Shown here: piece after piece, positions 5,155 through 29,850 of the stretch
Position numbering within the stretch: position 1 is the first letter of the stretch
How the letters are laid out: every line of letters starts with the position of its first letter
Source: Actinomycetota bacterium
GTDB lineage: Bacteria > Actinomycetota > Actinomycetes > Actinomycetales > Microbacteriaceae
Direction: 5' to 3'
Assembly (NCBI GenBank): GCA_013297625.1
Contig: JAAFHT010000017.1
Location: 1 to 33,374, forward strand
DNA: 33,374 nt
Notes under the pieces: model-generated
The model's database searches: none
Seen by the model: the letters and a program-made list of their open reading frames with translations, nothing else
Told to the model about the DNA's origin: nothing
Program-made: the position numbers and the translations under genes

Positions 5155-5160
5155 TAGAAT
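5155..5160 (+). promoter_or_regulatory. -10 box of the hrcA operon
   Basis: TAGAAT at 5155-5160 is a good actinobacterial -10 box, 65 nt before the hrcA ATG. No convincing -35 box is found 16-18 bp upstream. Its last base is the first base of the CIRCE-like operator, so HrcA bound there would cover the transcription start. Confidence 0.55.
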
Positions 5161-5186
5161 TGGCAGTCTGATCGAGCGAGTGCCAG
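5160..5186 (+). promoter_or_regulatory. CIRCE operator (HrcA binding site)
   Basis: TTGGCAGTC, a 9-nt spacer, then GAGTGCCAG. This has the exact 9-9-9 architecture of CIRCE (consensus TTAGCACTC-N9-GAGTGCTAA). The right arm matches the consensus at 7 of 9 positions and the left arm at 7 of 9. The arms are imperfect inverted repeats of each other, as in many actinobacterial sites. The position, immediately after the TAGAAT box and before hrcA, fits the known autoregulation of HrcA as a heat-shock repressor. Confidence 0.85.
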
Positions 5187-5225: not shown

Positions 5226-6221
5226 ATGGTTTCAGAGCGCGCTCTGCACGTGTTGCGAGCGATCGTGCACGACTATGTCGCGTCGCGTGAACCCGTCGGC
5301 TCGAAAGCCATCGTTGACCGTCACCAGTTCGGTGTGTCAGCCGCGACGATTCGCAACGACATGGCTCTGCTCGAAGAAGAAGAGCTCATTACGGCTCCCC
5401 ACACGTCTTCGGGCCGCGTGCCGACCGATAAGGGTTACCGCGTCTTCGTCGATCAGTTCGCCGACCTTCGGCCGCTCAGTGGTGCGCAACGGCAGGCCAT
5501 TGCGTCGTTTCTCGACCAGTCGGTCGACCTCGATGACGTGTTCGCGCGCACGGTTCGCCTGCTTTCGCACCTGACCAACCAGGTTGCTCTCGTGCAATAC
5601 CCGGCACTCGGCAACGCGCGCGTGCGCCACATCGAGCTCGTACCTATGAGTGCCACGCGCGTCATGACGGTGTTCATCACCGATGGCGGCCGCGTCGATC
5701 AGCGCATCATCGAGCTTCCGCTCGAGGCCGACGACGCCTTCATCGGTGAGTTGCGCGCCAAACTCAACGCGGCGCTCGCGGGCCAGGTGCTCAGCGAGGT
5801 GCCCCAGGTTGCCGCCTCGCTCGCCGAACGATTCGCTCCCGATCGCCGCGAAGCCGTGGGCGTCGTTTCCGAAGCCCTTTTGGGGCATGTGGATGCGCAC
5901 CGCACCGACCGGCTCGTCATGGCGGGCGCGGCCAACCTCGTGCGCACCGAGGGTGACTTTGCGGGCAGCGTCTACCCCGTGCTCGAAGCTCTCGAAGAGC
6001 AAGTCACGTTGCTCAAGCTTTTCAGCGAAATGCAGGTCGACGAGAGCGGCGTGACCGCCCGCATTGGTCGCGAAAATGATGAAGCGCTGAAAGAAACTGC
6101 GGTTGTCACGAGCGCCTACCGCGTCGGCACCGATAGCTCGGCCAAACTCGGCGTCAAGCGAGCGCCGACGACATCAAGAAGGCGTACCGCCGACTCGCGC
6201 GCGAGCTGCACCCCGACGTGA
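5226..6221 (+). CDS. hrcA: Heat-inducible repressor HrcA, C-terminus lost and replaced by out-of-frame dnaJ sequence
   Basis: HrcA represses heat-shock genes by binding CIRCE. The 331-aa frame (ATG 5226, AGGAGGAG just upstream) has the N-terminal winged-helix domain (about 1-75: [53 protein letters not shown]) and the GAF-like domain through residue about 310 ([17 protein letters not shown]). The family then continues with a G(P)TRMDY...AVRxVAxxL ending of about 25-30 residues. Here that is missing. After LGV (about 6155) the frame reads 22 residues of basic nonsense that is the dnaJ J-domain read in another frame. The fault is either a real deletion or an assembly error. Repressor stability and dimerisation could be affected, since the missing segment belongs to the core domain. 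Confidence 0.85.
6147..6220 (+). other. hrcA/dnaJ junction with out-of-frame J-domain remnant
   Basis: Read in the dnaJ frame, 6158-6220 encodes [20 protein letters not shown] and continues V-N-P, that is helix I end, helix II and the HPD motif of a J-domain. The frame opens only after the TAG at 6134-6136 and contains no ATG, GTG or TTG before the GTG at 6218. The HPD tripeptide therefore cannot be translated from a normal start. CTCGGCGTC (6147-6155) encodes the LGV that both HrcA (LGVxGP) and DnaJ (YxxLGV) normally carry and is a likely microhomology for the joining event. A -1 shift anywhere in 6137-6220 would fuse HrcA to DnaJ. Confidence 0.8.
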
Positions 6222-7222
6222 ATCCCAGTGCGGATGCCGCCGAGCGGTTCAAGCAAGTGACGCACGCCTACGACGTGCTGAGCGACCCGCAGCAGCGGCA
6301 GCAGTATGACCTGGGCGGGTCGGGCGGCTTTGGCGGAGCATCCGGATTCGGGGGCTTTGGCGACATCTTCGAAACCTTCTTCGGCGGCGGGCAGCAGCAG
6401 CGCGGCCCGCGCAGTCGCCGCGAACGCGGGCAAGACGCTCTGTTGCGTGTCGAAGTCGAGCTCGACGAGATCGTCTTTGGCACGAGTCGCAAGGTCGAGG
6501 TCGACACCGCGATTCTGTGTTCAACATGCGAAGGCTCGTGTTGCTCACCCGGAACGAGCCCCCAGACCTGTGACATTTGTCGCGGCTCGGGCCAGATTCA
6601 ACGAACCGTGCGCAGCCTGCTGGGCAACGTCATGACCTCGAGCCCGTGCGGAACCTGCCGTGGATACGGCACGGTCATCGCGAGCCCGTGCCCCTCGTGC
6701 GCCGGTCAGGGTCGAGTGCGTGCCCGCCGGGCGATTCCCGTTGACATTCCCGCGGGTGTCGACACCGGCGTGCGCATTCAGCTGCCCGCGCAAGGTGAGG
6801 TTGGCCCCGCGGGCGGACCCAACGGTGACCTCTACCTCGAGATCAAGGTCAAGACGCACGAGACGTTCAGCCGCAACGGAGACGACTTGCTCGCGACCGT
6901 TGAAGTGCAAATGACCGACGCGATTCTCGGCACCACCGTGACGCTGCCCGGTCTCGACGGCGATGTTCCCGTGGAGATCAAGCCCGGCACCCAAAGTGCC
7001 GAGATCATCACGATCAAAGACCGTGGCATCACGCGCTTGCGGGGTTCGGGCCGCGGCGACCTCAAGGTGGGGGTGCAGGTCGTCACGCCCGTGCGCCTCA
7101 ACGCGAAAGAGACCGAACTCATTCGGCAGTTCGCGTCGAGCCGACGCCCGGTTCCGCCGCAGTTCTCGACCTTCCAGCAGGGCATCTTCGCGAAACTCCG
7201 TGATCGTTTTCTGAACCTCTAG
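6218..7222 (+). CDS. dnaJ: DnaJ2-type Hsp40 chaperone, J-domain start missing
   Basis: DnaJ stimulates the ATPase of DnaK and hands it unfolded clients. The readable frame (334 aa from GTG 6218) starts inside the J-domain, just after HPD. It keeps the helix III-IV region ([25 protein letters not shown]), a Gly/Phe-rich linker (about 30-60), and four zinc-binding Cys repeats ([32 protein letters not shown]; about 98-165). The C-terminal substrate-binding domains ([32 protein letters not shown]) also remain. The first zinc repeat ends GSCC rather than GSG. Without HPD the product could not stimulate DnaK. The order hrcA-dnaJ-rsmE identifies it as the second DnaJ of actinobacteria, not the dnaK-linked one. 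Upstream coding sequence exists but is out of frame (see the junction entry). Confidence 0.85.
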
Positions 7223-16166: not shown

Positions 16167-16913
16167 TTACTCGGCAGTCGCCGCCCACTCGGCGAACCGG
16201 ATGCCCGGCCCGGGCACTCCGGTCGTGTGCAGCCCTGCCCGGTAGGCGCCGACGAGCTTTCCGGGCGCGTGCCACTCGACGACGCGGCGCGCCGCGGCCT
16301 CGGGTGTGGCGCCGCGCGCCACAAGCCACTGCCGAGCGAGTTCGGCCATGGGTAGCGACTCGGGGCCGCCGAGGTCATCGACGCGGCCCTGCGCGGGTGC
16401 TGCCCCCACGAGCTCAACGAGTCGCGCCGCCACGGCATCGGTGCTGATCGGCTGAAACGGAACGTCGAACGTCGTCACGCGGGGCAGACGGCGTTGAGCG
16501 CGGAAGAATCCCGCGACGAAGTCGTGAAACTGGGTGGCGCGCAGAATCGTGTGCGGCAGACCCGAGTCGGCAATCAGGTGCTCGCACGCGAGCTTCGCCC
16601 GGTAGTAGCCGAGCGGCACGGCGTCGACGCCCACGATCGACAGATACACGAGGTGCTGCACGCCCTCGGTGCGGGCGGCCTGCAGCAGGTGCTGCGTGGC
16701 GCGAGCATCCGACCGCCGATTGGTCGCGAGGTGCAGCACGGTGTCGACGCCCGCGAGGGCTTCGGCGAGGCCAGTGCCCGACTGCAGGTCGGCGATCACA
16801 TGACCGGCGCCGGGCCGGCGGCTCAGGATGCGCGGCTCGACGCCCCCCGCGCGCAGGGCGTCGACGGTGGGCCGGCCCAGGGTTCCCGTGCCGCCGGTAA
16901 TCAACAGGGTCAC
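16167..16913 (-). CDS. NAD(P)-binding SDR-type protein (NmrA-like)
   Basis: A 248-aa atypical short-chain dehydrogenase/epimerase-like protein. The N-terminus LLITGGTGTLGRPTVDALR carries the TGGTGxxG nucleotide-binding loop (about 6-13), followed by VDTVLHLATN and HLVYLSIVGVD. YYRAKLACEHLI provides the Tyr-x-x-x-Lys pair, although in this subfamily catalytic competence is often lost. The best match in memory is the NmrA/TMR family of NAD(P)-binding proteins, whose members act as redox sensors or reductases of unknown substrate. The GTG at 16913 has a strong GAGGAGGA just upstream. A 20-bp gap separates it from the upstream UPF0126 gene in the same direction, so the two are probably cotranscribed. 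Confidence 0.87.
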   Translation of the reverse strand: MTLLITGGTGTLGRPTVDALRAGGVEPRILSRRPGAGHVIADLQSGTGLAEALAGVDTVLHLATNRRSDARATQHLLQAARTEGVQHLVYLSIVGVDAVPLGYYRAKLACEHLIADSGLPHTILRATQFHDFVAGFFRAQRRLPRVTTFDVPFQPISTDAVAARLVELVGAAPAQGRVDDLGGPESLPMAELARQWLVARGATPEAAARRVVEWHAPGKLVGAYRAGLHTTGVPGPGIRFAEWAATAE

Positions 16914-16933
16914 AGCAGAATCCTCCTCGTGCG

Positions 16934-17767
16934 TTACCCGCGCGACTGGCTCGCGCCGGGAATGGGCGAGCGGCGGCGCGTACGCGGCTCAGAGCCGATT
17001 ACGGGAATCGACGACGTCGTCGGGTGCAAGTGGATCACACCCGTGGCCGTCGTGACCGTGCGCCCGCGCTCAAGGTCGGCCTCAGCATCCGCATCGGCAC
17101 GACTGCGCCGCGGCAGGCTCGGCAGCTTGGGCAACCGCGTGATCGCGCGTTGTTCGGGGAGGCTCCAGCCGAAGAGCACTGAAGCCACGCGAACCCCAAA
17201 GGTCAGGGCCACGCCGATGATGCCCGCGACGAGCACGTCAGCGTCAAGGGCGAGCAGCACCGCGATAGCGCCGGAGCCGGCAGCCGCAGCAACGGCATAG
17301 AGCGAACCGACGTGCATGAGGGCGATGGGCAGATTGAGCAAGAGGTCGCGCAGAATCGACCCGCCCACGGCGGCGAGCACGCCGACGAACACCGCCGCGA
17401 CTTCGGGCAGTCCGAGGGCGAGCGCCTTCGTCGTGCCGATGGCACCGAACAGCCCAATTGTCAGGGCATCGAGCACGGTGATGAAGCGATTGAGCCGCCG
17501 AAACACCCGCTCCAGCAACATGCCGAGCAGCGCCGCGCCGGTCGCCACGACGACGTACCAGTTCGACTGCAGGGGAGCGAGCGGAACATCGAGCAGCAGG
17601 TCGCGCAAGAGACCGCCGCCAAACCCCACGACGATGCCGATGATCGCGACGCCGAGCCAGTCGAGTCGCCGGTCGCGAAACTGCGCCGCGAAGAGCGCGC
17701 CCTGCAGCGCACCGATGCCGACCGCGAGCAAGTCGACCCAGAGGGGAATAACGAAGACCTCGTCCAC
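16934..17767 (-). CDS. UPF0126/TRIC-like membrane channel protein
   Basis: A membrane protein of about 277 residues with two tandem UPF0126 (glycine-transporter/TRIC-like) repeats. Each repeat has a GGxxLRDLLL motif: GFGGGLLRDLLLDVP and VGGSILRDLLLNLP. Seven hydrophobic helices span about residues 7-205. The C-terminal 70 residues are charged and probably cytoplasmic. TRIC-type prokaryotic proteins form trimeric cation channels, while YicG-like members have been called glycine transporters; the ion or solute cannot be told from the sequence. I prefer the GTG at 17767, because the first helix (IPLWVDLLAVGIGALQGALFA) follows at once. A start at 17842 would add 25 non-conserved residues and would overlap the promoter region of nrtR. 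Confidence 0.88.
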   Translation of the reverse strand: MDEVFVIPLWVDLLAVGIGALQGALFAAQFRDRRLDWLGVAIIGIVVGFGGGLLRDLLLDVPLAPLQSNWYVVVATGAALLGMLLERVFRRLNRFITVLDALTIGLFGAIGTTKALALGLPEVAAVFVGVLAAVGGSILRDLLLNLPIALMHVGSLYAVAAAAGSGAIAVLLALDADVLVAGIIGVALTFGVRVASVLFGWSLPEQRAITRLPKLPSLPRRSRADADAEADLERGRTVTTATGVIHLHPTTSSIPVIGSEPRTRRRSPIPGASQSRG

Positions 17768-29813: not shown

Positions 29814-29850
29814 CACGGTACCCAGCACGACCTAGGAGACTAGAGGCACC

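Follow-up and report, generated by a model that had tools for sequence, protein, structure and literature searches.

The locus examined here, in which hrcA runs into dnaJ2 and the joining ends of both genes are missing, raises the question of whether the short junction is a normal form of its clade, an altered but working form, a recent deletion, or an artefact. The window (the whole stretch of DNA analysed, 33,374 nucleotides) corresponds to contig C13. The draft genome to which it belongs has 181 contigs totalling 2,431,884 bases, with 97.34% completeness and 2.92% contamination. The closest genome found, a MAG of the genus Microcella (G019; locus L037, PNMM01000001.1), was used as the reference for the deletion.

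Geometry and distribution of the short junction

Relative to G019, BLAST and alignment gave an exact count of 127 bp absent from the window, just under the 130-200 bp estimated in the first-pass annotation. The absent DNA encodes HrcA residues 311-339, the hrcA stop codon, the dnaJ2 ribosome-site region, the dnaJ2 start and its first 11 codons. The two BLAST pieces share exactly three window bases, CGT at 6152..6154 (the junction, annotated without strand), and these are found at both ends of the deletion; microhomology of at least 3 bp has a chance of 5.4% or less at random 127-bp breakpoints. When the alignment was read by eye, the hrcA stop directly abutted the dnaJ2 GTG in 19 of 23 same-genus loci. 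In G019 the stop is followed immediately by the GTG, and GGTGAGG ahead of the GTG was read by eye as the presumed ribosome-site region. Because the hrcA stop normally abuts the dnaJ2 start, one small deletion damages both genes, in agreement with the earlier proposal that a single deletion had removed both joining ends. The accompanying claim that intergenic DNA had been lost does not hold, as almost none exists in the genus. It is highly probable that a single one-step 127-bp loss at CGT, either a very young mutation or an artefact, has taken the end of hrcA and the beginning of dnaJ2 from this one assembly, as a private loss-of-function lesion without evolved function. The lesion is of an ordinary sort and creates no new kind of gene.

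A 9-bp box encoding LGV, CTCGGCGTC, had previously been suggested as the point of recombination or collapse; the break fits the 3-bp CGT at 6152-6154 instead. A crossover in the LGV box would leave CTCGGC-(GT/AT)-CGACCGTCAAGCG; it was rejected because these 7 bases are absent from the window. The box could still have contributed in two steps, by a 120-bp in-frame homologous deletion between its copies in hrcA and dnaJ2 and then a 7-bp slip between CGTC repeats, and a dnaJ2 that read CTCGGCGTCGACCGTC, as in locus L004, would yield the observed junction. This route is judged very unlikely: it needs two events where a single one at CGT accounts for the same sequence, and G019 reads CTCGGCATCGACCGTC, which leaves the 9-bp match undemonstrated in this lineage.

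In order to establish whether the short junction is shared, 25 other genomes of the genus were surveyed. The locus was found in 23 (all except G015, 75% complete, and G024, 82% complete), and the missing DNA was present in every one of the 23, so that chance variation does not account for the short form. Among the loci of 80 named relatives, all 80 gave a dnaJ2 N-terminus beginning at residue 1-3 and 79 an intact HrcA end; in the remaining one, a MAG of 71% completeness (G014, locus L046), hrcA carries a different lesion. The short junction was seen in none of the 23 same-genus loci and in none of the 80 loci from named relatives. A normal short form of the clade was ruled out, since no relative examined has it. 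Across the family, PF01628 was matched in 244 of 249 sampled genomes, and among the matches listed it ends at profile position 212-215 vs 203 in the window. The hrcA match was absent in 5 of the 249, suggesting that loss of hrcA is tolerated in places. Three of these five genomes (G174, G224, and G268) fall in one genus, g6, which points to lineage-wide hrcA loss there.

Remaining parts of hrcA and dnaJ2

The hrcA gene begins with an ATG at 5226 and stays in its native frame until about codon 310 (...AKLGV, 6155). Codons 1-310 (5226..6155, + strand) encode a product with 100% amino-acid identity to the G019 protein over 310 residues and with matches to PF01628 and TIGR00331; the final base of this stretch, 6155, comes from the dnaJ2 side of the join. 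Beyond it, 21 out-of-frame residues and a TGA (6219-6221) are read from dnaJ2 DNA (6156..6221, + strand), giving a protein of 331 aa vs 339 aa in G019. The PF01628 match ends at profile position 203 of 215 and that of TIGR00331 at 312 of 338, with a TIGR00331 score still above the curated cut-off (248.6 vs 197.2). As the first-pass annotation had stated, the conserved C-terminal segment (GPTRMDY...AAVRAVARY) is absent, corresponding to residues 311-339, and 13 columns that are invariant across 26 homologues fall within it. With these columns lost, the HrcA core may be damaged, as had been proposed. The AlphaFold model of an intact relative's HrcA is too poor to bear on this (mean pLDDT 55.7, with values below 50 over the segment lost in the window), and alignment to the solved relative 1STZ does not extend through the lost end, stopping at residue 303, or at 319 with a profile.

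The dnaJ2 remnant (6152..7222, + strand) is in frame from R12 to its stop, without the first 11 codons, the start, and the ribosome-binding region, and keeps its position behind hrcA and in front of rsmE. The earlier description of N-terminal residues as missing was accurate, while the number given (about 16) was too high; 11 residues are lost before the shared R codon, and the sequence resumes as R-Q-A-S-A (CGT CAA GCG AGC). No ATG, GTG or TTG occurs in the DnaJ2 frame before the GTG at 6218, which is therefore the first possible start. The resulting ORF (6218..7222, + strand) encodes 334 aa vs 367 aa normally, begins at the V after HPD, and overlaps the TGA of the hrcA frame in GTGA. The DnaJ2 so encoded lacks J-domain helices I-II and HPD, confirming that both the start and HPD are gone, and no recognisable ribosome site was seen by eye ahead of the GTG at 6218. 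The PF00226 match to the window DnaJ2 covers profile positions 36-63 only, and this half J domain still scores above the Pfam cut-off (32.0 vs 27.8). The complete CXXCXGXG zinc-finger and the C-terminal domains are retained, with PF00684 and PF01556 above their cut-offs. Over its full length the window DnaJ2 falls below the TIGR02349 cut-off (316.8 vs 377.2), which the intact G019 protein passes (379.3).

The two frames are related by -1 and jointly open from 6137 to 6221, and a -1 shift would fuse HrcA to DnaJ, as had been pointed out. A programmed frameshift producing such a fusion protein has a negligible probability, however, as an X-XXY-YYZ slippery heptamer is absent from 6130-6217 and overlapping frames occur at this place in no relative examined.

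Three J-domain places were found in this genome, and DnaJ2 is the only one with a zinc finger. DnaJ1 (L032 742-1716), which adjoins grpE and dnaK, has the J and C-terminal domains and no zinc finger. The dnaK-grpE-dnaJ1 cluster is intact on contig C2 with a MerR-type regulator behind it, and dnaK extends beyond the stretch examined. The third J-domain protein (L034 766-1701, on contig C7) has a weak NERD-like match, below the cut-off, behind its J domain.

Age of the lesion and its reality

The remaining parts of both genes bear no trace of decay. Over codons 1-310 of HrcA, 58 positions differ from G019, none of the changes being nonsynonymous (dS 0.30, dN 0); base 6155 belongs to the join, which leaves 57 differences to HrcA itself. 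In the DnaJ2 part, 354 codons long, there are 57 differences, two of them nonsynonymous and conservative (V/I, D/E). With neutrality along the whole window branch, the expected nonsynonymous changes would number about 103 in HrcA and about 95 in DnaJ2. Because amino-acid change is near zero, inactivity of the genes would be limited to at most about the last 3% of the branch, a bound calculated by hand from HrcA alone under a Poisson model with equal branches assumed. This bound allows a strain-level deletion and an artefact equally; a pseudogene or an altered form of any great age is hardly compatible with it.

Purifying-selection marks on both remaining parts, together with the GTGA overlap at 6218-6221, might also be taken as signs of an evolved short form, in which a truncated HrcA and a J-less DnaJ2 are coupled stop-to-start and both work in a changed way. 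Such a form is extremely unlikely, given that a new lesion would be expected to carry the same selection mark, that it is common to no relative examined, that by eye the GTG at 6218 has no recognisable ribosome site before it, and that 13 invariant HrcA columns are gone.

A real deletion, whether fixed or segregating in the sampled strain, would have arisen at CGT through illegitimate recombination or slippage during replication and would be very young; we place it close to an even chance. Its support includes the 3-bp microhomology at the join, a junction free of N whereas the assembly writes 10-N gaps where joining fails, an otherwise clean gene set (117 ORFs compared, none of the others broken except at contig ends), and the loss of hrcA elsewhere in the family (5/249 genomes). 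Selection offers an analogy: as the accessible part of one study describes, adaptation of Lactococcus lactis to heat selected for a point mutation in CIRCE that increases groESL (PMC4585701). The absence of molecular decay counts against a real deletion in so far as it confines the event to about the last 3% of the branch, and losing DnaJ2, which alone of the three J-domain places found has a zinc finger, should carry a cost. Furthermore, heat-adapted Geobacillus overexpressed hrcA instead of losing it, as the accessible part of that report describes (PMC12967825), which argues against HrcA loss as a general route to tolerance.

Alternatively, 127 bases may have been dropped through a chimera, of a molecule or of a read, or through an error in assembly or consensus, with the organism itself having normal hrcA and dnaJ2; we hold this to be somewhat under an even chance. 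Strong purifying selection on both genes until essentially now (0 replacements in HrcA, 2 in DnaJ2) is consistent with an artefact, as are the draft state of the genome (181 contigs), the cost expected from losing the only zinc-finger DnaJ found, and comparable clean-edged gaps in G014, another draft of the genus, from which it is evident that drafts can contain gaps of this kind. In available text from a report on metagenome scaffolds, local assembly errors were detected by read mapping and then fixed by hand (PMC7674155).

Several observations speak against an artefact. The junction carries no N although 10-N gaps are written elsewhere in the assembly, and only 3 bp are shared at the join; 3 bp of shared sequence is too little for an assembler k-mer collapse. 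No other such break was seen in about 130 kb compared. An intact second copy of hrcA or dnaJ2 was not found in the searchable assembly, though masked contigs of about 2-3 kb could hide one; in four of them that were sampled (2,079-2,859 bp), every base is N. The first-pass annotation had considered an artefact quite possible, and we concur: from sequence alone, a real strain-level deletion and an artefact are inseparable and stand nearly level.

The comparison of gene integrity with G019 covered about 129.5 kb out of 237.9 kb of this genome's sequence, window included. Of 117 ORFs, 106 were covered at least 90% by one piece and 11 were flagged. The flagged ORFs comprised seven at contig ends (six identified by script, one by eye), three whose reference ORF starts too far upstream, and one that represents this lesion, entered as an antisense ORF that the script preferred over hrcA and dnaJ2. 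The comparison is blind to in-frame losses inside one piece and to losses of less than 10% of a gene. A generally error-ridden assembly was ruled out, the lesion being the only break away from contig ends among the 117 ORFs.

Gaps of 10 N were seen in this assembly at L133 7381-7390 and 15916-15925 and at L144 19308-19317. Another, at about position 612 of L034, has a repeated stretch flanking it, a pattern suggestive of two overlapping ends that were not merged. Elsewhere in the window, G019 has about 947 bp more at 16912-16935, in what looks like a minus-strand gene for a sigma factor of the ECF type; in the window this place is a gene boundary with no broken gene. At 29814-29822, G019 is about 607 bp longer between an oxidoreductase gene and a dus-like gene, a reading-frame presence/absence difference.

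The CIRCE regulon and comparison with known systems

A genome-wide pattern search recovered four CIRCE sites at three promoters, and the reversed control gave 0 matches. The operator upstream of hrcA, TTGGCAGTC-N9-GAGTGCCAG (5160..5186, + strand), is intact and identical to that of G019. Of the others, one lies on contig C42 before a Cpn10 (groES) gene and two lie on contig C104 before a frame opening MAKIIAFDEEARRGLERG, which is presumably groEL.

If the deletion is real, HrcA would probably be unstable or inactive, and the CIRCE genes groES, groEL, and hrcA-dnaJ2 would be constitutively derepressed. DnaJ2, without ribosome site, start, and HPD, would be lost as a DnaK partner, and the DnaK cycle would be carried by the DnaJ1 of the intact dnaK-grpE-dnaJ1 cluster. 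Because HrcA loses 13 invariant columns, an inactive repressor with raised chaperonin levels would be the likeliest outcome. A further scenario has the deletion fixed in a Microcella population with no working HrcA and high GroES/GroEL, and with the J-less DnaJ2 acting as a DnaK-independent holdase through GTGA stop-start coupling; its probability is very small. A real deletion would represent a datable natural knock-out of a repressor and a neighbouring co-chaperone, and one recent enough for the regulon of three CIRCE promoters to be otherwise untouched. Caution is also warranted in annotation, where the locus would appear as a HrcA cut short next to a DnaJ2 without its J domain and could be taken for a fusion or a new regulator.

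Compared with known HrcA/CIRCE systems (PF01628, TIGR00331), the window is alike in that 310 of 339 residues are native, the score exceeds the cut-off (248.6 vs 197.2), and an intact CIRCE stands in front, but the conserved end (GPTRMDY...AAVRAVARY) is replaced by the 21 out-of-frame residues. Similarly, it resembles actinobacterial DnaJ2 of type I (TIGR02349; PF00226, PF00684, PF01556) in its complete zinc-finger and C-terminal domains and in its gene place, and differs in having no ribosome site, start, helices I-II, or HPD. Another lesion within the genus is that of G014 (L046; NCEJ01000089, MAG Micrococcales bacterium 32-70-13), where hrcA also carries a frame-shifting deletion; there, however, 83 bp are missing elsewhere in hrcA, the dnaJ2 start is intact, and no bases are shared at the ends. 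In the same genome (L046 3001-5100), a second gap of 174 bp, homology-free, lies at the dnaJ2-rsmE boundary, and both gaps fall within the same 6.8 kb. As far as the accessible part of the source describes it, the derepression mutant Lactococcus lactis TM29 (PMC4585701) would share the outcome of constitutively raised groESL; in TM29 the operator carries a point mutation, whereas in the window the operator is intact and it is the repressor gene that would be truncated.
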